The notes beneath the pieces were generated by a model. That model saw only the letters and a list, made by a program, of their open reading frames with translations, was not told the origin of the DNA and did no database searches. Shown one piece after another: positions 3,537 to 63,437 of a stretch of 64,000 nt of DNA. The translations under genes were made by a program, and so were the position numbers. The DNA comes from Galaxea fascicularis (taxonomy: Eukaryota; Cnidaria; Anthozoa; Scleractinia; Euphylliidae). The DNA lies in NCBI GenBank assembly GCA_948470475.1, contig OX419339.1:8695502-8759501 (forward strand), given 5' to 3'. Every line of letters starts with the position of its first letter. The first letter of the stretch is position 1.

Positions 3537-4411
3537 ATCCTTCATATTCAGTTTAAATTTTTGAGTGGGCGTGCGTGCAAATTATTACTAACTGGAATAA
3601 CACAAGCGAACGGTGATGGAAAGCAGCACGAGAGCACGATTCATTACCATGACGATTTCAGTAGCCAAATACAATGTCAATTTTACAGATTTTAAGAATG
3701 TCAAAATTTTTTTTTACTGTCAAATAAAATAAATTTTACGTGTGCCTAAACGAGCTGAAGCGAGCTTGTAATGAGATGGCCTTGCGTACAAGGAAAAGAT
3801 CTTGTGTAATTACCCCTTCAGTTGACGTGTAGGTAATCAACCTCGCCTCTTCGTTTTTATTAGAATTTCTTCACTCAGTTTAGAGTTAATTTTATGATTT
3901 CATGATTTTGTATTTTTATATTTCCAGCTCATTGCACTCAATTCGTGCTATCTGTCCCACAACCCAGGTAAACATTGGTTAACCCTCGAGTGGGGTATTT
4001 CACATTCTTATCTTTATCAAACGTTTTCTTTGTTTATTCATCCCCCACATGCATTGCACAAGTGCAGGAAAAGAAAATAGAAACCACCTACCGCCCTCTC
4101 ACCCACTCATATTGGAATGTTTCCCAACTAACAGGGAGAAAACAGCCCCGTTTTGCTTTGCGGCTGCTACCACCAAGTTCATATATAACACACTTCCTAG
4201 ATGCTAAATTTAGAATCAAAGTTACGTGCCGTATAATTGCGACAGCGGCTCTCTTTGACGATCATGCGCATGGGGAATGTCCTGACAACAGAGAATGTTT
4301 GAAGTGTCAGTCAAGTGTAACATATGCGAGCGAAGCCAGTGGTGGATAGACTCGGTTTACTAACAAAAACTTAGCTTATTTGCCACCGAGCTATGCTTAC
4401 CACGGTTGATT

Positions 4412-14064: not shown

Positions 14065-17000
14065 TTAATTGTTACTGGATTGTTCTGAATGGGCAATTTC
14101 CTGGATTCGCAGATTGGCGGCTGCAGCTGCGGCTCGTTTTGGCCTGAAGGGTGGAACCTCTGGGTCTAAGCTTGAGCTTGCGTTGGGTGCACGATCGACA
14201 GATAACTCCAGTGGGTAGAGATGCTGCACGGCTCGCTCTATCTCTCCTTTCCCAGCTCGCACCTTGGCTCCGCGGATCATCCCGTCACGTCCTACAATTA
14301 ACCTTTCCACGATTCCCAGTTTCCAAGAGTTACGATTTCGGGACTCGTCTTGTATGATGACTACGTCTCCTACCGAGGGGTGTGGGGTCTGCTCTCCTCC
14401 GCTCTTGCTGTGCCGCTCTCTTAGACTCCGTACGTACTCTTTCGTCCACCTGCACCACATGGCTTCCTTACATCGAAGGAGGTACTTTGCTCTCTTCCTC
14501 AGGTCTCTCTCTTGCAGGTGATTGGGACTTAATTCGGGGAGCTGGTTTGGCCGAAGGTGTAGCATAGAGCTTGGAGTCAAAACCGGCATTTGAACATCTT
14601 CCTCTAGGTAAGTCAGGGGGCGACCATTTATGGCAATTTCTACATCAAGCACGACCTCAGACAATTCTCCCCAGGACAAGGTTCCATTTCCCACTGTCTT
14701 ACGAAAAGCCGACTTGAATACGCCTATGAGCCTTTCGAACTGGCCACCCCACCACGGAGCTCTGCTGAGGTTAAATCTCCAAGTCAGGTCAAGTTGTGTG
14801 AGGCAGTTGTGGAATTTCTCATCATTCCTTACGTTACTCAGCCAATCAGCAGCGGCTTTAAAGGTGCTTCCATTGTCTGAATAGATCACGCGTGGACGAC
14901 CGCGTCTGGCGATGAAACCCTTTAAACTTGTGAGAAACTTGTTTGTTTCTAAGCTTGGAATGAGATCAAGGTACACTCCTCTGGTCAGACTGCAGGCGTA
15001 GAGGACTAGGTAACCTTTTCCCTCAGTTTTCTGTGTCATACGATACTTTATGGGGCCAGCAAAGTCGACTCCAATAGTTTCGTAGGGCGTCACTCCTTCG
15101 GTGCGTGTGAGAGGCAAACTTCCTGGTGGTGGGCACTGGTAAGCCTGGGCTTGAAATCGCTTGCAACCCCAGCAGCCTTTGATGACCCTTTTCGTCAACG
15201 CTCTCAGGCGAGGGACCCAATGTGTTTCTCTGACCTTGGTCATTGTAAGGGTAACTCCCCCGTGAAGGGTCGTAAGGTGCGCTTGTTGAACGAACTTGAA
15301 AGTAAACAAGTTGTCGTCTGGAAGGTAGATTGGGTAGGCACCAATGAGTCTTCCTCTGCACTCGAGTATACCACTATCCCTTGGCTGAAGGTTAAGTTGA
15401 AGTTTATCCGCTGAGAATTTCTTCGAGCTTGTGGCTTCAGCTTGCACGCGTTCGGTCCACCAAACTTCTTGGGACTTGATCTCATCTGTAGTCAGTGGTC
15501 CGTTGGCTCTTATTGACTTCGGTCTTTTGCAGTTGGCGAGAAATCTGGCGATCCAAGCGCAAACGCGCAAAGTTTTCCGCAGGCTAAGGTTCTCCAACAT
15601 CTCAGTGAACGCATCTTTCTTTGGTACAGCTATAGCCAGGATTTCCTTAGCTATCTTGGCTTCTGCTCGGGACTCGGGCGAGGCCTGAACTTCAATATTA
15701 GGGGGCCAATGATCTGGATAGGGCAACCATGGAGGTCCATTTATCCATAGTGGTGCGCTGATTACACTTCCCCCCCTGCTTCCCAGGTCAGCAGGGTTCT
15801 GATCGGTGGGAACGTGATGCCAGACAATTCCTTGATGTTGCTGTATTTTATTCACGCGGTTAGCCACGAACTGGCGGTACTCTCCACTTCCGCGTATCCA
15901 ATAGAGGGCAACAGTACTGTCTAACCAGCAGTAGATGAGTGGATCACAATCAGGCAGCAAAGCTTCTCGAACGTTAACCGCTAGGTTCGCCGCCATATGG
16001 CCGGCAACGAGCTCCAATCTGGGAATGGTCAGGTTTTGTTTGGATAGGCGCGACTTGGACGTGATGAGACCCTGGGTGACACCTGACTCTTGATCGACCA
16101 CTGCGTAAACTGCGGCACATACGCCTTGCGAACTAGCGTCTCCAAAGGCGTGAAGTTTGATTGACTTAATTGGCTCTTTAAAGGGTGCCATTGCTCGCTT
16201 CACGCTGACGGTGTCTGGTAGGTTGCAACGCCACTTGTGCCACCTCTTATCTAAATCGGCTGGGAGGGGCACATCCCAGGGTAGCTTCCTCTCGCAAATG
16301 TCCCGGAAAATGAACTTTCCACCAAGCGTCATGGGTGAGACCAGTCCCAGGGGATCATATGTTTTCGCTAGATGAGAAAGAACTCCCCTCTTGGTTGTTT
16401 CCACTTCTTGTTGGGGAAAACAAACGCTCAAAGTGTCAGCGGCTGGCTCCCAGGGTAGTCCCAGTAGCTTTGTCTCGGATGTCTTGGTACCAAGTTGTTG
16501 TTTTGCAAAGCTCTGCTCTTCGTTGTCGTGTTGTTCAGCAGGTTGTGTTAACTCAATGGCGTTGGACTTCCATTTGTGGAGGGTGAATTGAGCGTCGCTG
16601 AAGATCATAATGGACTTTTCTTTCTGCTCTTGAGTTTGTTGGACTGTTGGTGCTCCCGTGATTAAATCATCGACGTATAGGCTCTTCCTAATTTGGGCGA
16701 CTAATTCTGGCTCGCGCCCCTCCCATGTCTTCAAATGCTGCTGAATCACCCCTCCCAGCAGGAAGGGAGATGACGTTAGCCCGAACAGGGCCCGCGTAAA
16801 TCTTAAGGTCTCAATCTCAGAGTGTCCCTTGAATTTCCAGAAAAATCTGAGTGCGTCACGCTCTTCTTCCTTAATACGTACTTGTAGAAACGCTTTCTGC
16901 AAGTCTCCGGTTAGCAGTACTGGATATAACCGAGCTCTGATTAATACGTTCCATAGCAGATTCTGCAAGGGGGGTCCCGGATGAAGACAGTCGTTCAAAG

Positions 17001-19293
17001 ATGGCTGGTTGGCGCTTTCTCTGGCAGACGCATCGTATACAATTCTTAACTTCGTGGTTTCTGCATTTTCACGAAGTACTCCCCTGTGTGGTATGTAAAA
17101 CTCGGTTCCCTTGGGTTCGGCTGGAGCTGACTCGACAATTCCTTCCTCTTTTTGTTCCTTGATTATGGCGTCATACTGGTCATAGGCAGAGGTACGTTCG
17201 AGTTTTCTCAAGAGCTGGTGGAGTCTTTTAAGGCTGCCAGACTTGTTTGTGGGCAGAAGTGGATGGCTTCCTTTCCAGGGGAGACCGGTTTCATAATGTC
17301 CGTCCGGATGACGAGTCAACTGTTCTTTGAACTCGGAGTAGACCACATCCTGGTCGTTGACTGAAGAGTCGGCGAGGCCAAGAACGTCTAAACGACAGAG
17401 CTGTTCGAAATCCACGTTGGTTGCCTGGGTGAGGAGAGTAGTACTGGTTTCGTTTTCGAGACCTGGTGACATTATTGTCCAGCCGAGTGTTGTTTTCTCT
17501 GCCACAGGCTGACCTGACAATGCTATCTTTGGAGAAGTGCTAGTCTTGATTCTTGCGTACTCCGAAGCACCTAGTACAAGATGGATTGGAAGATGCGGCT
17601 TTGTATCCTTGTCGTCCATGTGAACTCCACGCAGATGTGTGTACTTTTCCATTAACTCTTCATACTTTGGGTTTTCCAGGGTCATAAGCTCAGGTTTGTT
17701 GACTTTGGAAACTGTCACGCCCATACTAAAATCGCCACCAAGAGATGTCACGTTGACGTCATACATTTCCACTTTGGTTGTCATGGAGCCAAGCATCATT
17801 TCGATTCGTTTAGTTTGGATTTCTGCCGGTTTGATGCGCAAGGCGCTGATTAGCTGAGCAGAGGCGTATGAGCTTCCAGCTCCAGTATCCAATAGGGCTC
17901 TGGTTTTGATTCCGTTAACGTTGACTAAAACTACGGGATACACCACTTCTAGTTTGTCACGCTGATGGGCTGTCAACAATCCTTCAGACCTTTGAATACT
18001 TTGATCGCTGTCGCAAATTGAGGTGTGGTGCTTCTTGTTACATTTCTGACATGCCATTTTGCTGCGACAATTTTCAGCTTTGTGGGGGCCGGTGCAATTG
18101 AAGCACAACCTCTTTCGAAGTAGAATCGACCGTCTTTCAGCCAAATTAACAACATTGGTGCAGTTAAAAGACTTGTGCTCTGTCGCGTCACAATACACGC
18201 AAGATGGCTTGCTTGCGCCATTCCTTTGTTGCGTGTTGTACACACGGAATGGGGGCTTATCTCTCTTTCTGTCATCGCGTCGGTTTCTATCATATTGCTG
18301 ATTTCTGTCATCTGGTTTACTGATCGGATTTCTTCGAGTCCAGAGTCGCAGTGCTTCAGCCAACTTGTCAAAGGTCCAATTTTCAAACGATGGGTCTGTT
18401 CGCACTAAGTCCCCTCTGATCGCCGGCAACTTGTCCAAAGTCATCGCCACATAGCCATTAACTTGTTCCAGTTTCCCCATTGTTTGCAAGGACTGCACTG
18501 AAAAAGTCAATTTGTCGCAAAATTCGTGAATTCTGTGAGGGTTCTGGCTAGGTATGAAAGGCAGGTCAAATATTTGTTGGGAGTAGGCCTTGATAATCTC
18601 CGAATCTTTCCCGTATTGGTCCAGCAGTATGGACTTGGCTCTGTTGTAACCTTCATTTGTAAATGGCAATCCTTCTACAGAATGTTTCACTTTCTGGTCG
18701 AGGAAAGACTTTAGGTAGGCGAATTTTGTCACGCCGGGCATTGTTGCTTTATCAATGATTTCCATAAATTGGTTCCAGAACCTGGGCCAGTCCTCATAAG
18801 TGCCATTGAAACGAGCTATTTGGAGCTTGGGTAGTTTCGCCGGTAGGTCATGGCCTGAGACAGATCCACCATCGGTAGTCCCGTTCTGAATTTTCGCTCC
18901 TTCACTCTCTTCTTTCGCTTGTTGTAGCTCAGTCTGGAACTTCATCTTGGTTTCAAACAGCTTCCTTTCGAAATCCAGTTCTTTCTCTTGCTTCTTAAGT
19001 TGCATTGTTTGACGGAATTCCTCGATACTGTCTTTTAGGATCTTGACGCTTTCATCTGCAGCGAAGATCTTGGTGTCCACACTGTCATTCCACTTGTTAA
19101 CTTCTTCAAGGTCCTCTTTCGCTGCGAGTTTTTGTTCTTCGACCGCTCGTTTCAAATTGTCGGCCTCCATAGACAAGGTTTTAACGGCGGAGAGATGCCT
19201 TTCAATTGCTACTTCGTTTTGCTGCGCTATTATCGATTCGGTTCTGCTCACAGCTAGCTTTAGCTGCTCTAGCTTGGTAGTTAAAGCTTCCAT
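14065..19293 (-). CDS. BEL/Pao gag-pol polyprotein
   Basis: A 1742-residue polyprotein that makes the element's capsid and enzymes for copying RNA to DNA and inserting it. I start at the ATG at 19293 (MEALTTKLEQLK). The frame stays open for 34 more codons, but those run through the primer-binding site into the LTR. In order: a coiled-coil N-terminus; a gag region of the BEL type (KLQIARFNGTYEDWPRFW); zinc-knuckle-like cysteines near 368-430 (CVYCDATEHKSFNC, CFNCTGPHKAENC, CQKCNKKHHTSIC); an aspartic protease (ALLDTGAGSSYAS, about 464); a reverse transcriptase with YVDD (about 871); RNase H (HAFGDASS, about 1048); and an integrase with an HHCC zinc module (CWGC, about 1375) and catalytic D, D, E in IGVDFAGP, YSDNGSTF and GGQFERL (about 1410, 1473, 1514). 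No stop or frameshift interrupts it. Length and order fit Pao/BEL rather than Gypsy or Copia. Confidence 0.95.
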   Translation of the reverse strand: MEALTTKLEQLKLAVSRTESIIAQQNEVAIERHLSAVKTLSMEADNLKRAVEEQKLAAKEDLEEVNKWNDSVDTKIFAADESVKILKDSIEEFRQTMQLKKQEKELDFERKLFETKMKFQTELQQAKEESEGAKIQNGTTDGGSVSGHDLPAKLPKLQIARFNGTYEDWPRFWNQFMEIIDKATMPGVTKFAYLKSFLDQKVKHSVEGLPFTNEGYNRAKSILLDQYGKDSEIIKAYSQQIFDLPFIPSQNPHRIHEFCDKLTFSVQSLQTMGKLEQVNGYVAMTLDKLPAIRGDLVRTDPSFENWTFDKLAEALRLWTRRNPISKPDDRNQQYDRNRRDDRKRDKPPFRVYNTQQRNGASKPSCVYCDATEHKSFNCTNVVNLAERRSILLRKRLCFNCTGPHKAENCRSKMACQKCNKKHHTSICDSDQSIQRSEGLLTAHQRDKLEVVYPVVLVNVNGIKTRALLDTGAGSSYASAQLISALRIKPAEIQTKRIEMMLGSMTTKVEMYDVNVTSLGGDFSMGVTVSKVNKPELMTLENPKYEELMEKYTHLRGVHMDDKDTKPHLPIHLVLGASEYARIKTSTSPKIALSGQPVAEKTTLGWTIMSPGLENETSTTLLTQATNVDFEQLCRLDVLGLADSSVNDQDVVYSEFKEQLTRHPDGHYETGLPWKGSHPLLPTNKSGSLKRLHQLLRKLERTSAYDQYDAIIKEQKEEGIVESAPAEPKGTEFYIPHRGVLRENAETTKLRIVYDASARESANQPSLNDCLHPGPPLQNLLWNVLIRARLYPVLLTGDLQKAFLQVRIKEEERDALRFFWKFKGHSEIETLRFTRALFGLTSSPFLLGGVIQQHLKTWEGREPELVAQIRKSLYVDDLITGAPTVQQTQEQKEKSIMIFSDAQFTLHKWKSNAIELTQPAEQHDNEEQSFAKQQLGTKTSETKLLGLPWEPAADTLSVCFPQQEVETTKRGVLSHLAKTYDPLGLVSPMTLGGKFIFRDICERKLPWDVPLPADLDKRWHKWRCNLPDTVSVKRAMAPFKEPIKSIKLHAFGDASSQGVCAAVYAVVDQESGVTQGLITSKSRLSKQNLTIPRLELVAGHMAANLAVNVREALLPDCDPLIYCWLDSTVALYWIRGSGEYRQFVANRVNKIQQHQGIVWHHVPTDQNPADLGSRGGSVISAPLWINGPPWLPYPDHWPPNIEVQASPESRAEAKIAKEILAIAVPKKDAFTEMLENLSLRKTLRVCAWIARFLANCKRPKSIRANGPLTTDEIKSQEVWWTERVQAEATSSKKFSADKLQLNLQPRDSGILECRGRLIGAYPIYLPDDNLFTFKFVQQAHLTTLHGGVTLTMTKVRETHWVPRLRALTKRVIKGCWGCKRFQAQAYQCPPPGSLPLTRTEGVTPYETIGVDFAGPIKYRMTQKTEGKGYLVLYACSLTRGVYLDLIPSLETNKFLTSLKGFIARRGRPRVIYSDNGSTFKAAADWLSNVRNDEKFHNCLTQLDLTWRFNLSRAPWWGGQFERLIGVFKSAFRKTVGNGTLSWGELSEVVLDVEIAINGRPLTYLEEDVQMPVLTPSSMLHLRPNQLPELSPNHLQERDLRKRAKYLLRCKEAMWCRWTKEYVRSLRERHSKSGGEQTPHPSVGDVVIIQDESRNRNSWKLGIVERLIVGRDGMIRGAKVRAGKGEIERAVQHLYPLELSVDRAPNASSSLDPEVPPFRPKRAAAAAANLRIQEIAHSEQSSNN

Positions 19294-19335
19294 GTTCTTG
19301 CTCTTGATTGAGCGTGTCCCGTCGGAGGTGCCAGG

Positions 19336-19757
19336 TGTGGGAAACGATTGCCTCCAAGAATAACGATTCCCCACGAATCTCACAAAAGGAAACACAAATC
19401 AGGGCAAATAATACTCACAGATCCACAGCGGGTTTATTGGCTCACAGGCTACTTCTCAACTGGTTAACACAACTGGTTTGGCAAACTTCCCTCGACTGGT
19501 TTACAAGGTCAACTAGCTCTCAACTGAAACTCTCGACTGAACTCAAACACTGAATGCTTATCTGCTATACTCTACATAGCATGCAATGTTGCTTGAGAGC
19601 GTACTAAAATTTGATTTCCGGTCCTTGACACATATCATCGTCGGCTATTTAACAAAACTACTTATTGCACGAAATTGATATCCCACATGGGTTTCCTATC
19701 ATCAAGTTAATTCTGCTTAAATCACGCAATCTCTAATGCTAGCACCAGTCTCCGACA
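19336..19757 (-). repeat. 5' LTR of the BEL/Pao element
   Basis: 422 bp copy upstream of the polyprotein, TG...CA ends, flanked by the CGAT target duplication. It should contain the element's promoter. Confidence 0.93.
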
Positions 19758-28500: not shown

Positions 28501-31500
28501 CAAGAGTTCGTTAACAACAATATCTGATTTAATGAATGATATGATTTTGCTGTCCCCTTGCCATATCGTAAAATTGGGGTTCCACTGTACTATGACAGCA
28601 TGAGCCTGCCTCTAAGTCTGTTTGAAGCGTGGTAACCAACATGTCATGCCTGGTCCAACCCTTACTCTCAGCCCCTTCTACAGACTTGCTGTTCCTCCTG
28701 GTCAGTTGTTACACTAGTGTAGAACCTAGCTGCCCTATATAGGCTCTTGACAAAACCATATCAGTTGTTAAAGAAGTGCTCTTATTATAATTAAAATTTC
28801 CCCTCCTCTTTCACAAAGCATACTCATCCCTAGATACATATCCATATTCCTTTTCTTCCTATGTTGTCTGTAAATATTTCTGAAATGCTAGCCCGTTCAA
28901 TTGGCTCTGAAAGGCTCTGCCTCAAAATTCAAACCTCAATTAGCTGTTCTCCAAGTGTTTCTGTTCAATCCAGACCAGCTTGACACAGAACAGAAATGAT
29001 ACAAAGTCTTTTCAAAAATGCCCAATGTCTTTCAACAGACACTTGCAGGCTCCCCTCCAACAACATTTAAAGAAACTTCAATATCATTCCTTAACTTCTC
29101 TATCACTACTTGATGAAAAAGTCACCTACCAATCCAATCATTTCTTACCTCTATTTCCATATAGTTGTGGAACTGGCATAATGTTAACCAGAACAGAGTG
29201 ATTCTGTGGACAAATGATGAAATCAGCGATTAAAAAGTAGTAGCCTGGGGTTTAGTAATTGAGGAAAATGGGAAAGTATCTATTGGGTTTCTTTACAATA
29301 ATAGGTGGGTCACCCCAAGATTTCTTTGGGTTGCCAGATACGACAAAGGAGGATACCATGAACTGGTACTTGGGTACTCAGCTTCTAATATCAACTCTGA
29401 GAAGTCTACATCAAAAATTATTTACAAAACAGAAGTGGTTGAAGGCTTTACTCAGAACTTAGATGATGAGTTACTGATTAGTGATGCTTCCAATGAACTA
29501 TTGGGGATCATTGGCACAGTGCACAAAAAGGTAAAAGAAAAATTGCCCTGATTTTGAAGCAGTGACAATGTAACAGCTAAACAAAATGACCCCATGACTG
29601 CAAATTCAAGAGGGACATAAGAATTCCACTAACTCTACAAAGGTAAAGTCAAAGATCAATAGCCATATGAATTTCTCTTTTTTTTTTATCCACCAGTGAG
29701 CAGGGAGGCAGGGTTTGCATTGATGGGCACAGACCAATTTGAATATAATTATGTAATTAATTTATATTCCAACTGTAGACTTACGCACTTGGTCCAGACC
29801 AAGTCCATGTCACAGTGTCCTGCAATCACAAAAAATTAAAATACTTTTTAATAAGTTACATTTATTTAATAATCAAGTATAATAACATTACTAAAACACT
29901 AACGACTTAATCATCAGACGCACAGTAATGGACATTGCAGTGTTTAACTGACTCAAATGCTGTAATGAACTGACACTTACCAATCTGTTGGGGTATTTAA
30001 AGACAACCGGTTGAACTGCACAGCCAGTATAAAATGCACCTAGTATTACACAGAAAAGCAAATACACAGAGACTTAGTGCAAAGCAGAAACTTATGATAA
30101 AGGGAACATATATGAGCTAGTTACAGGGCTTTCAATAGAATTCGGCTACCACCAGAGCTCTGGTGGCTGTAAGCCATTGCCTCATTGGCTACTTGGCTCT
30201 TTCCATGGCTGCTTCGATTAGCTGTCTACTATCACAGGGGCACAGACCTGCAGCTACAACAGACCTTTTTACCGATACGGCGGCCATCTTGAATTCTATT
30301 GTTTTGACTAAGAAATTATGGGCTGCCGAGGGGGCAATCGCTGGAAAATTTATCGTATACACAGCTTTCAGGATAAATTTTTACTGCTTGTGACTCTCAT
30401 ATTCCAAAACAAATATTACAAGCGTTACATCTTTCTGTCACGGTATTTGGCAGTGGTTTCTGTGGTTAGCGAAAAATTATTGTTAAAAGTTATCATGCCA
30501 CAGTATTCTTTATAATTATTTCTCATCTGCCCCCTGGGTATCCCATAATTTCCTCGGAATTCAAGATGGCCACCGTATCGGTAAAAAGGTCTATTCTTAT
30601 TGAAAGCTTGCAGTAAATTAATTAGACATGAACTGAATTTTCAAGCATGTTATTAATTTTAATACTTGCAATAATATAGAAGAATAGTGGAAACTCCAAG
30701 TCAATGTGCACTGTGAGCTCATTCCCAGCTGGGTGTGAAAGGTCCCAGAAAGGGTTCCTTTTTAGTTAATATATCCATTCAATGATTATGAATGATGGTA
30801 AGGTGTAATATGCCCGTGAGAATGATGATATCTAGTCGCTTGGCAACGGGCGAAGGGACAACTGAAAAGAAATCAGAGTCCCAGGCAGGAATCGAACCTA
30901 CAACCTCCATAACACCAGTCGGATGCTCTAACCACTGAGCTACAGGAACCCCTGGTGAGCTAGGTTGTTTATCTAGGTTCTTATACAAAGTGTCCCACTA
31001 TGGTCTGCGGACTCGACAATGTAAATGCTATTCAGACATGATAATGATTATGAATGATGGTAAGGTGTAATATGCCCGTGAGAATGATGATATCTAGTCG
31101 CTTGGCAACGGGCAAAGGGACAACTGAAAAGAAATCAGAGTCCCAGGCAGGAATCGAACCTACAACCTCCGTAACACCGGTCGGATGCTCTAACCACTGA
31201 GCTACAGGAACCCCTGGTGAGCTAGGTTGTTTATCTAGGTTCTTATACAAAGTGTCCCACTATGGTCTGCGGGCTCGACAATGTAAATGCTATTCAGACA
31301 TGATAATGATTATGAATGATGGTAAGGAGTAATATGCCCGTGAGAATGATGATATCTAGTCGCTTGGCAACGGGCGAAGGGACAACTGAAAAGAAATCAG
31401 AGTCCCAGGCAGGAATCGAACCTACAACCTCCGTAACACCGGTCGGATGCTCTAACCACTGAGCTACAGGAACCCCTGGTGAGCTACAATCTCGGTCAAA

Positions 31501-34500
31501 ACAAATGAAAAATTTAAGTCCCCCCTCCCCCCCATTTCAATGATGAAAAAAAGGCGCAGTTTGGTTTGCGCGCGAACTCAACATTGATATGGGGGGGAGG
31601 GGGGTTTTATTTCTCATTTTATTCTGTCCAAGATTGTCCGAGGTCCATACTGACGTTACCAAGAGGTATTCAGGAGCAAAATAGATTGAATTCCAAAGGT
31701 GAAAGCGAGAGGGGAACGTGAAAAATACAGAACGAACGTTCGCAGGTGGAAGGGATAAACTATGTAAGGGAAGAAAAACTTTTTGAAAAAGAGAAACGAA
31801 AATATGTTTGATTGTTTGTTTTGTTCACGACGGAGGTTTCTAATCAATACACAGAATGGCACCTTCGTGAGAATTGTGCAAAGGTGAAAGAAAAGCTTGA
31901 ACGCAGTCGCATGCATTTCAACATTTGGCATTGCGCGGGAAATTTGCATGCTATATAGCCGTTGCACTGTGCTTCAGCTCACAAACTTAGTTCCGTAGAA
32001 CATACTAATGGAGTTTCTCTCGCAGTACTGTAGCAGTTCAGATAATTCTTAAGACAGCCAATTTGAGTGCTGTGGAGAGAAAATGCACCTTACGCCGCAA
32101 TAAGTGAGAAGCGTATATCTGTTAACCCATAGCCAAGCCGATCTCAGCATATCCCCAGACAGGGAATCGTTCGGTTCTGCCGTGTGCGAAGCCGTTTCAA
32201 AATGTGAGGGCCCGAAAGTGAAAATCATTCAGTGGACCCGCTGCCAAGAGAGTCATAAAAAGGGTGGAGAGCACTAGCACATAGCTGTAAAGCTCAACAA
32301 GATTAAGCGGTGGTTACCTATTCGCCACTTCCTAAAAAGCAAGTGGAATGTTGATGTTCATTTCTCAAACTGTCATGTTAACTACTACAGTGCTTGGTTG
32401 TACACAACGAAAGAAGACCAAAACTTTCTTCAGTCTTCTGCCCGATTTTTTGCACAACCAAGCGTGATTTGGTGTACGTGAAAGGAATGATTGACGAAAC
32501 GGAGACAGAAATGATGGCCGTGCGCGGGTATTCTTTCCAGTTTAGCAGACAAATACCACACTGCGACCAGATCAGAGTACCTTCATGTGCGCGACGCTTC
32601 GCCGAGCTAATTCTCAATCCTTAAAAAAAAAAAAAAAAACGATAGGAGCGGGTCCGAACCCGCGTTTACTAGGGTGCCTACACCCCCTGTTTCCGCTGCG
32701 CAGCGCCAATTCGTCAGTGCATGGCTTGGTTGACAAAATTAAACTACCTATGTGTTTTACTCTGGTCTTTGTTCAACGACATTTAATTCTTGTGGATTCG
32801 TTTTCTCTCTACAAAATAACAAAACACGGTTTAATGTTTGGAAAATAAAAAATGGGACGATTTACAAGTTGCTCGGGACGATTTTGGGCGATTTACCACG
32901 GTTTTGTAGCAGTGACAGTAAAAACACAGGCATAGGTAAGTCTTTATTTCGATGATTCCCTTAATCGTACAAAATCGTTTGAAATCGTTGCAATACAACC
33001 TTAAACCACACGAAATTTATTGTAAACCGTAAATAAAACGTACGAGTGTAATTTTAATATATATGGTGCGAGTGGGAGACATAGAGAACAGTTTAATACT
33101 TTAGTCTTTCACCATTGTTTCGTATTATCTCGGCAATGCGACCATTCATAGACTCGATAGTTTTATTAATCAGCTCCTGAGAAATATTATAAATTGTTCT
33201 CTGCACTCTGTGACAGAACTCTTCATATGACTCACGTGTAATACCTCCCTCAAGGGCATCTTTCTCTAATTTCTTCGACACAATGTTAAAAATGTTCTCT
33301 ATAGGATTTAAGTCAGGACTGCGTGGCGGTATTTTTAACAGTTCGGAATTACAACGGGCCATCGCGTCGCGGGCTGTTTTGCTATTTTGAGACGGATCAC
33401 CATCTTGCAGCCAGATAGCCAGGTAGCCAAATAACCCACCTGTAATACCTAAACTCAGGTTCTTCTGTCATGTTGTGACGCGCGTGACTGCGTCAGGGAC
33501 CGTTGATTTATCCCGTTAATTGTGTTGACAGATGACCTCTTGATTACTGTAGCCTCCTTTGTTGTCACGTTGTTTCTCTGGATACAATCTCGGTCAAAAC
33601 AAATGAAAAATTTAAGTCCCCCCTCCCCCCCATTTCAATGATGAAAAAAAGGCGCAGTTTGGTTTGCGCGCGAACTCAACATTGATATGGGGGGGAGGGG
33701 GGTTTTATTTCTCATTTTATTCTGTCCAAGATTGTAGGTTGTTTATCTAGGTTCTTATACAAAGTGTCCCACTATGGTCTGCGGACTCGACAATGTAAAT
33801 GCTATTCAGACATGATAATGATTATGAATGATGGTAAGGAGTAATATGCCCGTGAGAATGATGATATCTAGTCGCTTGGCAACGGGCGAAGGGACAACTG
33901 AAAAGAAATCAGAGTCCCAGGCAGGAATCGAACCTACAACCTCCGTAACACCGGTCGGATGCTCTAACCACTGAGCTACAGGAACCCCTGGTGAGCTAGG
34001 TTGTTTATCTAGGTTCTTATACAAAGTGTCCCACTATGGTCTGCGGGCTCGACAATGTAAATGCTATTCAGACATGATAAGTTCTGAATAGCATTTACAT
34101 TGTCGAGCCCGCAGACCATAGTGGGACACTTTGTATAAGAACCTAGATAAACAACCTAGCTCACCAGGGGTTCCTGTAGCTCAGTGGTTAGAGCATCCGA
34201 CCGGTGTTACGGAGGTTGTAGGTTCGATTCCTGCCTGGGACTCTGATTTCTTTTCAGTTGTCCCTTCGCCCGTTGCCAAGCGACTAGATATCATCATTCT
34301 CACGGGCATATTACACCTTACCATCATTCATAATCATTATCATGTCTGAATAGCATTTACATTGTCGAGCCCGCAGACCATAGTGGGACACTTTGTATAA
34401 GAACCTAGATAAACAACCTAGCTCACCAGGGGTTCCTGTAGCTCAGTGGTTAGAGCATCCGACCGGTGTTACGGAGGTTGTAGGTTCATATCCATTCAAT

Positions 34501-45500: not shown

Positions 45501-46043
45501 TACGGGCCCGAGCAAAGCGACTCTGATTCGTCAAATGATACATTTACAGCCTTTCCACTGTTGTTCGCCATGTTTGCTTTGAGTCCGTCTGTACAGCGGC
45601 CAGGTTCCATGAATATGCGCTTCGCATATGTGCAATGCTGACACTCTTGAAAACATCAAACGGATTCGGCTTGTTTACGTTTTCAGTGATTTATTTTGTT
45701 GGAAAAAAACACGTTTATATGTATGATTCTTTCGACTATTGGTGCTAAAGGACCGTCGTTAGTTAAACCTGGCCAAGATATTTTGGGTTTTAGCGTGATT
45801 ATCTGGGAATGAAAAGAACAACTTTACTTGGCGGCTCGACAATTCGAAGACCCTCGCGAAGAACACTCCCACGTTTTCCGCTTTCGTGGTAGATTTAGAT
45901 TATTATGGGAAGTGTGTACTCTTCATCGATTAATTCAAAGGCAAAATTCAACCTGTAATGATGTGAGCGATTGACATAATCAACTGAGAAGGCGTCAAAA
46001 AGTGGACTGAAGTGGTATATTATTTTGCTTTCAGCGATTCAGC
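45501..46043. promoter_or_regulatory. Shared divergent promoter region
   Basis: 543 bp separate the start codons of the RRM-GYF gene (- strand) and the PI3K (+ strand). Such spacing usually implies overlapping promoters. I see no TATA box placed for either gene. A pyrimidine-rich acceptor (TTTTGCTTTCAG, ending 46034) lies nine bases before the PI3K ATG, so a 5' UTR intron may lie in this interval. Confidence 0.55.
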
Positions 46044-49000
46044 ATGGAGAAAAAGATGGCGAATCTGGATAACCTAATGTCTTTCTCATCCGACGAAGAA
46101 GACAATGTATCTGTAAACTCGGAATTGTCTTGGCAAACGATTTTGTCGTCAGAACTCAACGTTGGCCCGAGCTGTCGTTCCGGAACTGAAAGCACGCGCT
46201 CATTGTCACCGGACTTCTTTATTTCGGACAGTCATCAGTTTAGCAACGGTCGCAGTGATAATAAATATTCCGTTCATCATGCTCAAGGTACTAAGTTGGA
46301 GCTACGGTCTCCGCAGTCAAGCTTTCCTTTCGATGGGGACCACTTAAGGTGGATCGGCTTCTCAAGTGACATTGGGACAGGTCCTGGCACTAATTTGTTT
46401 GATGAAGAGTTCAAATTGAGGAAGTCGCATTCTTCTGATGAGTTATCACCACCTAGGAGCCCAGTAAAAAGGCGAAATAATATTCCGCGATTTCCTCAAG
46501 GTGAATTTGCTAATTATCATGATGCCTTCAGGCCTCCTTTAGAGTTCAACTCTGATAGAGCAACCAATTACAGCTCTGAGGTACAACCAATTGCAGAAAC
46601 TCTGAAAAATACTGGCAGATCAACGTCTTACACCTCTAGTCTCTTTGTGACTTTAAACAATCAACATAGTGACTCAGGCATGCAAAATGCAAACCAGTCT
46701 TTTGCAAGCAATGCATCATTTGGTTCCGGGAGTGAGCACCCATATGGTTCGATAACTTTAAAGCTTAAAGGTGACTTATCAATAAGAGGGAGCAAAGAAG
46801 AAATTCTAGACTCAGACAAGTTGCCAACAGATGATCATGTCTTTCCAGTAGAAATAACTGAGAGTACTGACAAGTTTACAAGCAGCTCAAACATAAGACC
46901 ACTGAAAGTACAGCTGCCTGCTGAAGGAGGTGGTAGAAATTCTGTCAAGTCACAAAAGGAGACTGCTTCTCGCAGCAAATCTGTTCCTCCCCCTCGTCCA
47001 CCAGCCCCAAAGATGTCCAGTCGTCCTTTTTCTGCCTCATTTCCAGACAAGAAATCACCATGTGCATCATTGTCAAGTGATCGTAATGCCAAATTTCTTT
47101 TCTATGGAGATGGATTATTTGATGTTGCCAAAGAAAGGAATGAGGAGGCTACTGCTTTCAGTGTGGCAATGACAAAAATCAGATCAGAATTCCGCTGGGA
47201 TGATGAAACAAACCCTGGTCATGTGGTAAGTCCCACAATACCTTATGACTATGAGACATTTCCTCACCACACAGAGGCATGTATTGCTATCTATACTGAG
47301 GGGCAACAGGATACTCTGAAGTTCACCTTCAATGCTCACAGCCCTGTAAACAAAATCATTGAGCTGGTGTTGAGTTGTTTATCAGATGATAGTAAGCAAA
47401 TAGACTGGAGTTCAGCATCAGTGTTTGTGCTCAAAGTTTGTGGTCATTCTGAGTACCTTGAAGCAAATAGCATTTTAATTCAGTATGGGTATGTACAGGA
47501 ATGCATCAAATTTGGGCGTGAGATTGAACTTGTGCTCCTTCAAAGCTGGCAAATCTCCAGACAGCTGGTAAGAACGGAGGAAGATGACTTCGATGAGAGT
47601 GTACCAAGAAATTACAAGGAATTCTTTGATTGTCCCGTCAGCACTGCTATTTCTGAGTATGGGCTGACTTTGCTCTTGGAGGCATTTACTGATGAACTTG
47701 TGAAGCTGGTGGAAGAGATGTCAAACCAAAGCAACCCACGGTTTGAACCAAGCCGGGTCATCCAATCTGTGAAGGCAATCTGTGCAACCCTGGCTTCCTT
47801 GGAAACTGAACAAGTCATCAGTTCAGTTAAGATCTTGAAAGATCTTAAGAATGCTGTGGTTTCCGAAAGAGTGCTTCCTGACAAGTCGTTTGTCTATAAT
47901 GCCCTCTCAAAGTTGCAGTCAGCCGTTTTGCTGTTGATTGAAATGTACTGCGATGCCTTTGACACTACGTTTGTACCCACCAGGGTGGACAGACCTAAAC
48001 TGGCTGGATCTATAGAGGTTACTGCCATGACTGACAACTTTCGTGTCCATGTAGCCTTTGCCAATAGGCTGCCCCTTCATTGGAATCAGGACTTCGATAG
48101 CTTTGAAGTCCAGTGTGGTATTTACTATGGAGGGCGCTTGTCGTGTCCCATTGAGGTAACGCAACAGCGGAAGGTCTCCAGACATTTCTTTGATCAGCTG
48201 CGGTGGGATGAATGGCTACAATTCAGCATCCAGATACGCCAGCTGTCGCGGGAATCGCGACTCTGCCTCACCCTGTACGGGATTGTCCCGACTGGCAAGA
48301 GCAACACATTAAATGTGGCTAGGACCCCGCTTGGCTGGGTCGCAGCCCCTCTCTTCGACTACAAAGGTGTGCTAGCGTCTGGAACGCATCTTCTTGGACT
48401 GTGGCCGGATGATGCCGCAAACCCTGTTGGTACGTGCTCATCAAACCTTCTTCATCCCTCTAGTGTCATTCTACAGGTCGAATTTGAGTGCTATCTGGCC
48501 GACATCGTATTTCCGGATTTCGACAGCAACTGTTGGTCAGTTTACGATGAAACTGATCGCTGTGAGCCCCAAGCCTCAACGGCCGATGTCTACAAGCACA
48601 TTCTGGAGAAAGATCTTTTCAACGAATTAAAGCCAGATGAAAGTGAACTGTTGTGGGAGCACCGCCATTACTGCAAGTCAGTCCCCAAAGCGCTGCCACT
48701 CATCTTGTCTGCAGCGCCTTCCTGGGAGTACCAATACCTTCCGGTCATTTACAGCTTGTTAGCTTCGTGGGCGCCCTTGAAGCCAGTAGACGCTATGGAA
48801 TTGCTCAAGGTCAGCTTCCCAGATACCCGTGTGCGAGCTACAGCGGTGGAGTGGATGGAGGCCCTTGTAGATGACGAGTTGTGCGACTACCTTCCTCAGC
48901 TTGTCCAGGCCTTGAAGTATGAAATCTACCATGACTCTTCCTTGATTCGCTTCCTCGTTCGCCGAGCTCTCGGCAGCGTCCGTGTCATGCATTATCTATT

Positions 49001-51053
49001 CTGGTACCTGAAGGACAACATCAGTGATCCTCAATTCGGTCAGCGCTTCCAGATCATTCTTGGGGGCCTACTTAGCATCTGTGGAAATGCTCAGAGGAGT
49101 GAGTTCACCAGGCAAGATGAGATCGTCTCTGATCTGACCCAGGTGGCTCAACTAGTTAAGAACGCTAAAGATTCTTCAAGAACGAACGTTCTTCAGCAAG
49201 AGTTAGCAGTGGTTGCTGGCAACATGTTTAGAAGCATGAGACTTCCTATAAGCCCGAGCTACGACGTCAAAGGTATGGACGTGCAAGCCTGTGGCTACTT
49301 CACTTCGAATTCTGCACCTCTGAAGCTCATTTTCAACAACGCAGACCCGTTTGGCGAAGACGTCCACGCCATGTTCAAAATCGGTGACGACATGAGACAA
49401 GACAGGCTCATCATGCAACTTGTGGGCATCATGAACAAGATCTGGTTACGAGAGGGAATCGATTTGAAAATAATCACGTACCAGTGCATAGCCACTGGCG
49501 TCGGTATGGGGATGGTTGAAATCGTTAAGGATTCGGTAACGCTTCGGGAAATCCACACCGAGCTTGGCCTGACTGGTTCTTTTAAGGATGAACCAATAGC
49601 GAGATGGATTCAAAAGTACAATGCTGGTGAGGAGAGCTTCCAAAGAGCTGTTGAGAATTTCACGGCTTCCTGTGCAGGCTACTGTGTAGCTACCTACGTC
49701 CTGGGAATCTGCGATCGCCATAACGACAACATCATGATCAAGAGAAGTGGCCACCTATTTCACATCGACTTCGCTAAGATCCTTGGAAACTCACAGATGT
49801 TTGGTTCATTCCGCCGTGATCGGGCTCCCTTCGTTCTGACTTCGGACATGGCGTTTGTGATTAACGGCGGTTACGAACCGAGTAGCCGTTTTCAGGACTT
49901 TGTGGACCTTTGTTGTAAGGCCTTCAATGTCATCCGATGCCATTCCAACTTGCTCCTAAACCTGTTGTCTTTGATGCTGAATTCCGGAATTCCCTGTTTG
50001 AGTAAGGTCGGTGATTTGAGGTACATACGGGATTCCTTACTGCCAGAGGCCTCGGAGGGGGAAGCCACGGCCGCCTTCACTCGACTGATAGAGTCCAGTC
50101 TCTCATCATGGTTTACTCAAGTGAACTTCTTCATCCATAACGTTGCGCAGATCCGAGACGTCAGTCAGCTGAGACTTTCAGCGGCAACCACGTCCAATCC
50201 AAGCTCTGTTCTTTCGTTTGTTCATGGCACATACTCTGTTGACACAGACGGCCTAATTGATTCTGCCCGAGTTGTGGACTTCCAGAAGCGCTACAGTCCT
50301 GAGAAGTATTACATCTACGTCGTGAACATTTGCCGCGACGGCGTTCAAGAACCATCGTTTGTGTTCCGTCGATTTAGTCATTTTCACGAATTGCATACAA
50401 AGCTCTCGGAGGCGTTCCCAGCCACGAACCTGCCGAGGCTTCCGAACAAGATCTACATCGGTCGGTCGCAGATCCGTGTAGTTGCTGAACGGAGACGAAA
50501 CGAGCTCGACCATTACATCCGACACTTGGTGATGATGCCGACGGAAGTGTCTGAATCTGATCTTCTGTACACCTTTCTCCATCCCTTGCGGCAGGACAAC
50601 CGAGAGGCGAGCTTGTTCTCGATTCGCTTACTCCCCGAAGAGAAACGAAACCGCGAGCGAGCCATTGGAGGAAACGTGAAGCTGTTGATTCGGCATGAAA
50701 GTGAAGCTCTTCGAGTCATGGTGATGCACGCTAAGGACTTGTCTCCGAGAAATCAGACAAGTCTGGCAGATCCGTACGTCAAACTTTACCTGTTGCCAGA
50801 TCCCATCAAGGCCACAAAGCTTAAGACCAAGATTGCACGCAAGACGCTCAATCCGACATTTAACGAAACCTTGTTGTACACTATGTCTGAGCGGGAGGTT
50901 CGTCAGCGGCATCTACAAGTAACTGTACTGGATCACGATTATGTCGGCGAGAACGAGTTTCTCGGTGGTGTACTGATAGATCTTTCGCAAGCTGATCTTA
51001 AGACATCAGTGGCCCACTGGTACACGTTGACTGACATTAGAAAACGGCGTTGA
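46044..51053 (+). CDS. PIK3C2: Class II phosphatidylinositol 3-kinase with C2 domain, single coding exon
   Basis: 1669 residues, uninterrupted. Class II PI3Ks make PI3P and PI(3,4)P2 on endocytic membranes. Order: a disordered Ser-rich N-terminus with a proline stretch (PPPRPPAPK); a Ras-binding domain (about 405-505); the first C2 (about 650-815); the helical PIK domain (about 856-1020); the kinase (about 1090-1365); PX (about 1412-1515, YSPEKYYIYVV); and a C-terminal C2 (about 1542-1669, VMVMHAKDL, ADPYVKLYLLPD). The ATP-binding lysine is K1112 in MFKIGDDMRQD. The catalytic loop ICDRHNDNIM is intact (D1224-N1229). The metal-binding motif reads HIDFAKILGN, so the glycine of DFG is alanine at 1244, unusual for the family. 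FGSFRRDRAPFVLTSDMA is the activation segment. Vertebrate PIK3C2 genes have about 30 coding exons, so a single exon suggests retroposition or intron loss; the frame shows no decay. Confidence 0.96.
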   Translation: MEKKMANLDNLMSFSSDEEDNVSVNSELSWQTILSSELNVGPSCRSGTESTRSLSPDFFISDSHQFSNGRSDNKYSVHHAQGTKLELRSPQSSFPFDGDHLRWIGFSSDIGTGPGTNLFDEEFKLRKSHSSDELSPPRSPVKRRNNIPRFPQGEFANYHDAFRPPLEFNSDRATNYSSEVQPIAETLKNTGRSTSYTSSLFVTLNNQHSDSGMQNANQSFASNASFGSGSEHPYGSITLKLKGDLSIRGSKEEILDSDKLPTDDHVFPVEITESTDKFTSSSNIRPLKVQLPAEGGGRNSVKSQKETASRSKSVPPPRPPAPKMSSRPFSASFPDKKSPCASLSSDRNAKFLFYGDGLFDVAKERNEEATAFSVAMTKIRSEFRWDDETNPGHVVSPTIPYDYETFPHHTEACIAIYTEGQQDTLKFTFNAHSPVNKIIELVLSCLSDDSKQIDWSSASVFVLKVCGHSEYLEANSILIQYGYVQECIKFGREIELVLLQSWQISRQLVRTEEDDFDESVPRNYKEFFDCPVSTAISEYGLTLLLEAFTDELVKLVEEMSNQSNPRFEPSRVIQSVKAICATLASLETEQVISSVKILKDLKNAVVSERVLPDKSFVYNALSKLQSAVLLLIEMYCDAFDTTFVPTRVDRPKLAGSIEVTAMTDNFRVHVAFANRLPLHWNQDFDSFEVQCGIYYGGRLSCPIEVTQQRKVSRHFFDQLRWDEWLQFSIQIRQLSRESRLCLTLYGIVPTGKSNTLNVARTPLGWVAAPLFDYKGVLASGTHLLGLWPDDAANPVGTCSSNLLHPSSVILQVEFECYLADIVFPDFDSNCWSVYDETDRCEPQASTADVYKHILEKDLFNELKPDESELLWEHRHYCKSVPKALPLILSAAPSWEYQYLPVIYSLLASWAPLKPVDAMELLKVSFPDTRVRATAVEWMEALVDDELCDYLPQLVQALKYEIYHDSSLIRFLVRRALGSVRVMHYLFWYLKDNISDPQFGQRFQIILGGLLSICGNAQRSEFTRQDEIVSDLTQVAQLVKNAKDSSRTNVLQQELAVVAGNMFRSMRLPISPSYDVKGMDVQACGYFTSNSAPLKLIFNNADPFGEDVHAMFKIGDDMRQDRLIMQLVGIMNKIWLREGIDLKIITYQCIATGVGMGMVEIVKDSVTLREIHTELGLTGSFKDEPIARWIQKYNAGEESFQRAVENFTASCAGYCVATYVLGICDRHNDNIMIKRSGHLFHIDFAKILGNSQMFGSFRRDRAPFVLTSDMAFVINGGYEPSSRFQDFVDLCCKAFNVIRCHSNLLLNLLSLMLNSGIPCLSKVGDLRYIRDSLLPEASEGEATAAFTRLIESSLSSWFTQVNFFIHNVAQIRDVSQLRLSAATTSNPSSVLSFVHGTYSVDTDGLIDSARVVDFQKRYSPEKYYIYVVNICRDGVQEPSFVFRRFSHFHELHTKLSEAFPATNLPRLPNKIYIGRSQIRVVAERRRNELDHYIRHLVMMPTEVSESDLLYTFLHPLRQDNREASLFSIRLLPEEKRNRERAIGGNVKLLIRHESEALRVMVMHAKDLSPRNQTSLADPYVKLYLLPDPIKATKLKTKIARKTLNPTFNETLLYTMSEREVRQRHLQVTVLDHDYVGENEFLGGVLIDLSQADLKTSVAHWYTLTDIRKRR

Positions 51054-59380: not shown

Positions 59381-60286
59381 GCTCCTGGTCCCAAGTAGAC
59401 TTTGCTTTGGTCACTTTGTTTTTATGACAGTACGTGTAATAACAGCAGCCGTCAGCTGTAATGATCACTTTTGCCTTACTTAGGCTGTATATACGTGGAA
59501 AATCTATTATAACAGTATATTCTGGTCAATAACGAAGTAGTTGTTCATACCTTTTCTTTATCGGTACAGCTTTATATACTTATTTTTCTACCATGTAATT
59601 TCTTATACGTTTGGATAGCCTGCAGATTTCCTTCGGTGTCGTTGCTGTAAATTTTTTTTTCTTAGCGGAAAACCTGCTGTTCATACCTTCCAGATAACTT
59701 TTGTATAAAGAAAAAATCTCCAGCTAGTTTACTTAAGTCTAAATTTCGACTCACCGAGGACCTTCAATATTACAGAAGGAATGGGCAAAACTTGTTTCTT
59801 TGCGAGTATGTAAATGAAGCAAAGATGTTGGATTGAGCCAGTGGTGTTTTCTTTGCTTGTTTGTTTTCAACGCGCAGTGAAAAACTTGTTTAGCGCTAGA
59901 TGTGAACACCACTAAAATATCCGACAAGATATTTAGATATAAGATATACACATGTAGGTAAGAACGTTTAGGCGTTTTCCTATGCGAGTCGAAGTTCTAT
60001 GTAAAAACCGTGAGATGAGAAAAATGAGTTGCTGTTGATCTTGAAACCAAGGTACAGTAAGAGCATCAAACTAAAATAATACAGAAAAGTATTTTGTGTT
60101 TTATGTGTGTTCGATATCCCCATACTCGAAAATAAAGAAGTTTGCGAAACTTCACACCCTTAGCTTGCCACGATGTTTGCGATTTTTTGTCGTTTATACC
60201 TATGCGACAAATACTTCTTCTAATATGATGAGACTGGTTGGGGACTGGAGATTACCATTTTTTTTTTCCAAAAATGTTTGTCACTA

Positions 60287-60468
60287 TACACCTTATTCCA
60301 AAATGGCTCCTGTTCTAATGTTCTTTTGTTTTTATTCAATTAGCCCTTGTTGCCTCGTTCAACGTAAAATGTTCATTTGAATTTTACTCTTACGAACGAG
60401 GCAACAAGGGCTAATTTGAATAAAAACAAAAGAATATTAAAATGGCAGCCATTTTGGAATAAGGTGTA
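60287..60468. mobile_element. Foldback MITE with TA borders and ~75-bp arms
   Basis: TACACCTTATTCCAAAATGG on the left is mirrored by CCATTTTGGAATAAGGTGTA on the right. The arms continue through TTGCCTCGTTC/GAACGAGGCAA at the hairpin tip. TA at each border suggests a Tc1/mariner-type mobiliser. Confidence 0.85.
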
Positions 60469-60577
60469 TTCTTTACCACGAGGTTTGTAAAGGTCCCCAG
60501 GAACAACAGTGAATACCGTGGTTTGCGGGTAGATCCAGTCGTTTCTGGGGCCAACGGTCAAAGTAACAATTTCAAAT

Positions 60578-60907
60578 AGACCTTTTTACCGATACGGCGG
60601 CCATCTTGAATTCTATTGTTTTGACTGAGAAATTATGGGCTGCCGAGGGGGCAATCGCTGGAAAATTTATCGTATACACAGCTTTCAGGATAAATTTTTA
60701 CTGCTTGTCTCTCACATTCCAAAACAAATATTACAAGCGTTACATCTTTCTGTCACGGTATTTGGCAGTGGTTTCTATGGTTAGCGTAAAATTATTGTTA
60801 AAAGTTATCACGCCACAGTATTCTTTATAATTATTTCTCATCTGCCCCCTGGGTATCCCATAATTTCCTCGGAATTCAAGATGGCCGCCGTATCGGTAAA
60901 AAGGTCT
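60578..60907. mobile_element. MITE family A, copy 2 (36-bp TIR)
   Basis: Nearly identical to 30261-30592. Inverted ends AGACCTTTTTACCGATACGG are perfect over about 36 bp. It is itself flanked by an older inverted pair (GGGTAGATCCAGTC at about 60527 and GACTGGATCTACCC at about 60943), so it appears to have inserted into the loop of another foldback element. Confidence 0.88.
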
Positions 60908-61420
60908 CTTAGGTCCTAAAATGGCAGTTTGCCCCCACAAAGGACTGGATCTACCCACAATTCACTTGCAAACTATTATTAGCAAAATTTGTATTCTCGG
61001 AGACGAAGAAAGTTCGACTACCTGGGGTCGAATGTCCATCTTGGCTTCATCTCCAGCCGTGGGGAGAATCGCAGGCGCATCGAGACACCCACGGCTGGAG
61101 ACCGAGCCAAACGTCAGGCAGCAACCACGCCCTAAAAAGCTGCAATTACAGCACACCAGATTTTATTTGTATTCTTACCGGGTGACAGTTGCAACACATC
61201 GTAAGGAATTTGAGATACAAGCGTACCTTGGTTCGCACAATATGACGTTAACTATTCCCCTGATCATAAAACGTCGCTTAAATTTTGGTTAAAAACAGTT
61301 TATGATTTTATATCCTCTTCACTAACTACATACAAAATTAAGCCTGTATACAGGAGTTCTATTTACTGATTTAATTAATTTCAGTTGCTATGGGATATTA
61401 TTGTCTACGGCATGTATACC

Positions 61421-61888: not shown

Positions 61889-63437
61889 TCACAAAAACAC
61901 TTTTCCAGGGTTCATGATCCAGTTGGGGTCCAACACTGATTTGATCTCCCTCATTACTGACAGCCCAGTTGGGCCGATTTCCTCAGGTAACAGAGCTTGC
62001 TTTCCACACCCAATACCATGTTCCCCTGTACAGGTACCACCCAAGGCTAAGGCACGTCTGGAATGAAGCAAAACATCACGATCAGCGATAGAAAATTGCA
62101 TCAAGCCTCAGGCTGATAATTTTAACTTGTTCAAGTGCAACATGTTGTTCTTCTAAACTAAGCGACATTTCAAAGAAAAACGACGGATGTGTTCGTGCAT
62201 TCGATCATAAACTTGCCAAATGCATACCAGTCAAGAAGACCATGCTCATGTGCAACCAACAGTGCAGGGTATAACCTCGCACGTACATGGCTATCTAAAC
62301 GAAAAACATGTTTGCTTGAACAGCATTTTCAGAAAACCATGACACAAATAAGTGAATCTACAGTCATCCACGATTTTATGAAATGAATGGAAATAGCACA
62401 TGGCTTGCTGTGGCGGCCTTTCTCAAAGCCCATGAATACAACACAAAGCATACCTTGCTATTCTGTCTATAAAGTTTTTTACTTTTTTCACTTCCTCTTC
62501 GCTTTCCAAATCAAGAAGCACCACACAGTGAAAGTTTCCATCTCCTACGTGGCCAACGATCGGCGCTAAACCAAAGAAAAACCACAATTAACTGCTCGTG
62601 CTCTCTTACCTTCCCAATCTGACAGTGAATTCTTTTACTGTCTGCAGCTCTATCTCGTCGCCCGGTTTTATTGGAATAAAGCAATGGAAATTTCCGTCAC
62701 CAACGTGCCCAACAATAGGCGCTGGGAATAAACGGAGCGGTGTTAATCATCAACAGATTGGTTTTCAGTTACATGGTTATTGCCTTAAGAGGCCTTCCTC
62801 GTGATGATAGTTTTTCGTACGCCTTGGGATGAAATTAGAACAAAGTACCTTCAAGTACCATTCTTTGTTACCAAAGTACTCATGGAACATGAAAAGAAAG
62901 AAATCAAGTGATTTTCTCAAAGGGAAAGCAAACAATAATCCACAACAACAATCCACATCAGTCCTTGTCGTCCATAACCAAAGGTTTATTGGTAGTTTTG
63001 GAAAGCTGATAAAGTACTTTTAAACAAAACTGAGCATAACGTTTGTGTCCCTCGTAGGACTGATGCTACTCTGGCGGGCCACAAATGAACTATATGTCCT
63101 CCAAAGGTCATGTAATTGTCCTGTTGTCGCCATTTTCACATTTCACACGTCTTTACGAAAACATAAGCTACTTAATCGACCTCTAAATCCTCATTATTTA
63201 GCCAGCGTAGATTTTTACAAAACAAAATGCAGTAACAACCGTCTGCACACCACATAAAAATACCGTAAACTGTCTGCAGTTATATAAAGATATGAACCTC
63301 AACTGTCTTTGATCTAAGAGAACATAGACGATTTGCAAGCACTCACCCACTAAGTTAGAAGCTATGATATCTTCTTTGGTTTCCACAATGATCTCTGGCA
63401 GTTTGGAAATTGGCACACAGACGTCGGTGGACACTCC
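61889..63437 (-). CDS. LDHD: D-lactate dehydrogenase (cytochrome-type, FAD), 3' part only
   Basis: Oxidises D-lactate to pyruvate with FAD in mitochondria (known for LDHD). Exons in the window, 5' to 3': 63437-63347, then either 62721-62610 (B) or 62565-62454 (A), then 62057-61889 with the stop. The first reads [18 protein letters not shown], as in vertebrate LDHD. The alternative exons each encode [14 protein letters not shown], holding the metal-binding histidines. The last begins [19 protein letters not shown] and ends [15 protein letters not shown]; its GEHGIG completes the active-site motif. Phases are 0, then 1 into A or B, then 2 into the last exon. About 143 C-terminal residues are seen of the roughly 500 usual. 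The FAD-binding half lies beyond 64000. Confidence 0.92.
62454..62565 (-). other. LDHD: LDHD alternative exon A (3' copy)
   Basis: 112 nt, acceptor TTTAG, donor GTATGC, phase 1 in and 2 out. It encodes [14 protein letters not shown] followed by [18 protein letters not shown] and IDRIAR. It joins in frame to both neighbours. Confidence 0.9.
62610..62721 (-). other. LDHD: LDHD alternative exon B (5' copy)
   Basis: 112 nt, acceptor TCCCAG, donor GTAAGA, same phases as exon A. It encodes the identical [14 protein letters not shown] but then [18 protein letters not shown] and TVRLGR. Only 44 bp separate its donor from the acceptor of exon A. Confidence 0.9.

Follow-up and report, generated by a model that had tools for sequence, protein, structure and literature searches.

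A candidate mutually exclusive exon pair at the substrate pocket of D-lactate dehydrogenase in the coral Galaxea fascicularis

Described mutually exclusive exon pairs

Mutually exclusive exon pairs occur in metabolic enzymes such as ketohexokinase and PKM, in which the exchange of one exon for the other changes enzyme kinetics. These proteins are unrelated to the D-lactate dehydrogenase (LDHD) considered here, and their exon layout is different from that of the coral pair, whose two members are termed A and B. Exons 4a and 4b of OGDH, also a mitochondrial dehydrogenase, resemble A and B in being mutually exclusive, and branch points lying 25-41 nt behind the preceding donor enforce the choice; but OGDH is an unrelated protein of vertebrates, and the swap alters its response to calcium rather than a substrate pocket (PMC7969005). 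Exons 15a and 15b of NALCN are likewise an old tandem pair, which swaps one selectivity residue and leaves the protein otherwise unchanged; NALCN, however, is an ion channel and not an enzyme, and the paper that describes the pair gives it as absent from cnidarians (PMC3557258). Mouse LDHD (PMC10589216; 8jdc and related entries) is a member of the same enzyme family to which both coral exon versions align without gaps. Unlike the coral gene with its pair, it has a single Ile407, and the alternative exon form is unseen among the mammalian rows listed.

The first-pass annotation of this locus knew of no such pair in LDHD, and no description surfaced in the literature that we searched on LDHD splicing and on coral or cnidarian exon duplication, subscription papers lying mostly outside that search. 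LDHD does not appear in the main text of a human survey of mutually exclusive exons (PMC5740500), and alternative splicing in corals has been called under-explored (PMC11998799). Sequence databases already contain part of the evidence, in that B-type isoforms are present in the automatic annotation of other corals. What is new here is the match of the first residue that differs between A and B to the Ile407 pocket position of the mouse enzyme. We consider it probable that these are mutually exclusive exons of a coral LDHD, and that their most likely effect is to shift which D-2-hydroxyacids are best oxidized.

The LDHD locus and its tandem exons

The window, by which we mean the whole 64,000-nt stretch of DNA analyzed here (contig C5:8695502-8759501), holds at its right edge the 3' part of an LDHD (D-lactate/D-2-hydroxyacid dehydrogenase) gene, which lies on the minus strand and continues beyond that edge. 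With neighboring DNA past the window included, the gene model begins near the position of residue 172 in the Acropora protein and consists of ten exon pieces with AG or GT at every internal border (Table 1). The visible exons encode 328 residues up to the stop, uninterrupted with A alone or with B alone, which speaks against a broken gene. N-terminal exons, including those of the FAD-binding domain, were not seen in the sequence searched; a run of N starts approximately 1.5 kb 5' of the first exon seen, and the missing exons presumably lie in that stretch. The original assignment to D-lactate dehydrogenase holds: against Pfam FAD-oxidase_C the tail of the protein scores 148.4 bits with B and 135 bits with A (cut-off 21.2), both exon versions match mouse LDHD with E ~1e-50 (174.5 and 172.2 bits), and LDHD is the closest solved structure to both. 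A single LDHD locus is seen in the readable part of the coral's own assembly of 416.6 Mb in 170 contigs. When this genome was searched in six frames with the Acropora LDHD as query, and 86 of 151 first-look candidates were scored, 11 matches emerged, 10 of them exons of the same gene and the eleventh a distant match (32%) on contig C6.

Table 1. Features of the LDHD gene, in window coordinates
Feature	Coordinates	Strand	Remarks
LDHD exon piece	68525-68459	-	past window edge
LDHD exon piece	67558-67466	-	past window edge
LDHD exon piece	67298-67193	-	past window edge
LDHD exon piece	65555-65462	-	past window edge
LDHD exon piece	64792-64664	-	past window edge
LDHD exon piece	64347-64220	-	past window edge
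Constitutive upstream exon, 91 nt, peptide ends ASNLV	63437-63347	-	donor at 63347; counterpart of mouse Ser365 (STDVC)
Exon A, 112 nt, F-type	62721-62610	-	14-residue motif and 23 residues; donor AAG/GTAAGA
Spacer A-B, 44 nt	62609-62566	-	lone yTnAy branch-point-like match at +22, 22 nt before B acceptor
Exon B, 112 nt, V-type	62565-62454	-	14-residue motif and 23 residues; donor AAG/GTATGC
Last coding exon, 169 nt with stop	62057-61889	-	GEHG, counterparts of mouse Glu442 and His443

Several other features share the window. Downstream of LDHD, nested inverted repeats at 60286-60965 have arms of 54, 39, 37 and 37 nt that are 84-97% complementary, and they are perhaps a folded-back mobile element. 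The plus strand carries an uninterrupted 1680-residue frame at 46011-51053 whose domains (Ras-binding, C2, PIK, kinase, PX, C2) are those of a class II phosphoinositide 3-kinase, a large gene that is apparently intronless here and perhaps an old retrocopy. A tandem array at 30781-31486 repeats a 262-nt unit 2.7 times (98% alike) with a tRNA-like gene in each unit, and further copies lie near 33912-33985 and 34170-34243; the tRNA-like genes number five in all (Rfam tRNA, 47 bits), and ARAGORN could not assign an anticodon. A single minus-strand frame of 1777 residues at 14065-19398 belongs to a Pao/BEL-type retrotransposon (Peptidase_A17, reverse transcriptase, DUF1759, DUF5641). Pieces of a MORN-repeat protein, possibly a junctophilin, lie on the plus strand at 4364-8783, where the domain search covers 7959-8780 and the piece at 4364 is alike by eye.

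Exons A and B agree in length and in phase (phase 1 in, phase 2 out), as first described, and both have AG acceptors and GT donors. Our recount of the 14 motif codons returns the earlier figure of 10 synonymous differences, with four codons identical and none replaced. The 23 residues after the motif had been called strongly divergent, and 17 of them do differ, with 6 matching. Nucleotide identity over the whole exon is 68/112, and Nei-Gojobori estimates give dN 0 for the motif (dS not computable) and dN 0.66 with dS 1.94 for the remainder. Misassembly had been named as a possible objection. A collapsed haplotype or assembly artifact is very unlikely, since 44/112 bases differ yet the motif residues are identical, and the stretch spanning A and B matches the 416.6-Mb assembly once. 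A tblastn search with both exon peptides found no third copy in the window, where the other matches had E values of 0.19 or worse.

Splicing from 63347 through A to 62057, or from 63347 through B to 62057, keeps the frame open to the stop. Joining A to B puts the sequence out of frame, as had been pointed out, and a stop soon follows; skipping both exons has the same outcome. These early stops would also fit an arrangement in which the tandem exons mainly yield unproductive A+B or skipped transcripts and so lower LDHD through nonsense-mediated decay, but we regard this as highly improbable: it leaves two distinct conserved coding versions unexplained, and the 44-nt spacer disfavors joining A to B.

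Published vertebrate and yeast data place the minimum distance from donor to branch point at about 50 nt (PMC6692369, PMC7969005). This limit may not be the coral's; measured against it, the entire A-B spacer falls short, so any branch point inside the spacer would break it. The other visible introns of the gene (n=8) measure 900, 167, 1637, 669, 316, 782, 625 and 396 nt, and the earlier proposal that so short a gap would not serve as a normal intron, and would exclude joint use by steric hindrance, agrees with these figures. Among 629 mutually exclusive clusters in the human survey, steric interference would account for 57 (9%), and 377 (60%) include exons whose length is not a multiple of three (PMC5740500); the A/B pair shows both features, a sub-limit spacer and a length not divisible by three. 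In the proposed mechanism, the upstream exon would be spliced to A or to B, each leading in frame into the last exon, and the joining of A to B would be blocked by the spacer, with the B branch point, as predicted by a simple motif (the sole yTnAy match in the spacer), lying about 22 nt from the A donor.

Two other modes of control were considered and rejected. An RNA hairpin is not indicated by the folding of the spacer (-8.1 kcal/mol, z -1.32, with 22 of 200 shuffles folding at least as well) or of the spacer with its flanks (z +1.48). Incompatibility between U2 and U12 sites would call for a U12-like donor, and judged against the U12 donor consensus neither GTAAGA nor GTATGC is one. Equal length and phases, the exclusive logic of the frame and the sub-limit spacer make mutually exclusive duplicate LDHD exons the best reading, as the first-pass annotation had it; the splicing itself and the use of both exons in Galaxea fascicularis are probable.

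Distribution and age of the two exon types

Comparison with other cnidarians had been suggested as a means of dating the duplication. We searched with the A tail and with the B tail, taking in each case the best 120 of 8000 scored matches from a protein database clustered at 90%, in which a sister isoform differing within the 37 residues would be hidden. Among these best 120, A-type exons are found in Acropora muricata (isoform X1), Desmophyllum pertusum, Pocillopora meandrina and, in addition, three coral-like proteins with longest contigs of 1917, 2133 and 2273 nt. Among the 120 rows listed in a search of short proteins there is one coral-like protein, P0201, an A-type fragment with a contig of 2055 nt. 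Contigs of 2 kb that carry a frame of 500 residues point to spliced cDNA as the source of such A-type records. B-type exons, again among the best 120 of 8000, occur in Oculina patagonica and Orbicella faveolata, both annotated as isoform X2. A-type transcripts probably exist in corals, then, and the B type is backed by annotation. In this database, clustered at 90%, A- and B-type records fall in different corals, with the B type in two corals besides that of the window, and none places both types next to each other in another genome; the scarcity of B-type rows in other cnidarians means little, because the matches are the best 120 of 8000 scored.

A tree of the 38 exon-encoded residues in 26 rows, which offers few columns, groups window B with the B exons of Oculina and Orbicella (96/90) and window A with that of Acropora (95/94), inside a coral A group (94/90); a forced grouping of window A with window B is rejected (p-AU 0.0017). 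In the tree built from the remaining visible sequence of the gene (15 rows, 290 columns), the B record of Orbicella groups with A records, namely those of Desmophyllum, Pocillopora and one more coral (96/92), and a forced grouping of the window gene with Oculina and Orbicella is rejected (p-AU 0.00016). The rows closest to the window gene are P0001 (96% over 289 columns), P0002 and Acropora, with support of no more than 78/63 for the grouping. Since the exon tree and the rest-of-gene tree disagree, the exons appear to have split before the genes that carry them. These comparisons support a single exon duplication within one gene, before the compared corals diverged, with both copies kept, and the duplication would be old, as supposed. 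B-type records could alternatively derive from a second, paralogous gene; this is disfavored by the gene trees, with a borderline result for full-length proteins when all six A records are held together against the B records (p-AU 0.057), and by the one locus visible here among the first-look candidates scored (86 of 151).

The two exons differ in how well their variable residues are kept: window B shares 13/23 with the B exons of Orbicella and Oculina, and window A shares 16-19/23 with other coral A exons, and by this measure exon B is under weaker constraint than A. The greater divergence of B from its relatives is what one might expect if only one exon were used and the other were a relic, its frame kept by chance or its use lost recently. 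We judge that unlikely, for B keeps 14/14 motif residues, its frame, both splice sites and a B-type signature common to Oculina and Orbicella. Retention of both copies, the alternative put forward at the outset, is better in keeping with a motif intact through 10 synonymous changes and with A- and B-type exons that recur in other corals.

Among anemones, a protein of Exaiptasia diaphana (P0019, isoform X2) has Val at the pocket position, and those of Nematostella, Actinia and Actinostola have Phe. Constraining the Exaiptasia V-type exon to group with coral B is not rejected (p-AU 0.305), and placing coral A and anemone F-type exons in a single clade gives p-AU 0.074. The Exaiptasia Val suggests that the exon pair may be older than stony corals.

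The pocket position and substrate preference

Residues of metal and substrate binding (mouse Arg347, Trp351, Ser365, His398, His405, Glu442 and His443, with numbers located on mouse protein P0026 and shifted by 3 after the N-terminal part) are present with either exon. In mouse LDHD the Mn ligands are His398, His405 and Glu442, and the pocket for the variable side chain of the substrate consists of Val101, Trp351, Ser365 and Ile407, the last being a named wall of this hydrophobic pocket (PMC10589216). A and B first diverge at the counterpart of mouse Ile407, two residues after His405, where A has Phe and B has Val. This residue follows exon type throughout the coral rows, window included, with Phe in 8/8 A rows and Val in 3/3 B rows. 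In human D2HGDH, Asn443 lies two residues after the metal ligand His441 and contacts the far carboxyl of the substrate, and mutations of Thr390 and Asn443 cut activity 2.6-3.4 fold (PMC7801405). The pocket role in mouse LDHD and the substrate contact in D2HGDH argue that this position helps set specificity in the family, and the initial guess of an altered 2-hydroxyacid preference is strengthened by the match to Ile407.

Across the 318 of 320 fetched proteins that match the motif pattern, this position is Ile in 126, Leu in 98, Val in 22 and Phe in 18, with rarer Ser (16), Thr (16), Ala (9), Met (5), Gly (4) and Cys (4). Phe is uncommon and not confined to corals, occurring also in three anemones, three hemichordates, a crinoid, a coelacanth record and a few arthropod and other rows. 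Vertebrate LDHDs mostly have Ile or Leu. Both Phe and Val are also found singly elsewhere in the family, so either may be tolerated without much effect.

Predicted models of natural relatives, as distinct from the window's own product, have mean pLDDT values of 83.3 (Orbicella, B-type) and 83.8 (P0001, A-type). The exon region forms the same strand and helix in both, and the best solved match for both is mouse LDHD (TM-score 0.95 by target length). Alternative use of A and B would yield two proteins with the same Mn-binding histidines and fold, but with a different pocket residue and a different strand and helix following it. Much else therefore changes along with the pocket, as the 17 altered residues lie mostly in that strand and helix. 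It is quite possible, though short of likely, that the exons are exclusive and that their swap serves stability, contact with the electron acceptor or control of expression, the pocket change being incidental. The constancy of Phe and Val by exon type, at a published pocket position, speaks against so incidental a role. In our preferred reading, that of a change in substrate preference between the A and B proteins, which we infer from this position, Phe would narrow the pocket towards D-lactate-like substrates and Val would leave space for longer or branched side chains, the direction of the shift being our projection.

We propose tentatively, as something possible rather than expected, that the specificity of coral LDHD is switched by splicing between an F-form for D-lactate and a V-form for bulkier D-2-hydroxyacids, and that this switch predates the divergence of the compared corals and is perhaps shared with sea anemones. 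As to the sources of these substrates, we can only speculate that the F-form may serve, for example, methylglyoxal detoxification, and the V-form branched-chain D-2-hydroxyacids or the methylthio-hydroxybutyrate of DMSP synthesis. A pocket swapped in this way makes for a sharp prediction, and an inexpensive one to test. If true, this would be the first splicing-swapped substrate pocket among the FAD D-2-hydroxyacid dehydrogenases, and a natural, old experiment in specificity in which the metal site is held constant while one wall of the pocket is exchanged through splicing.
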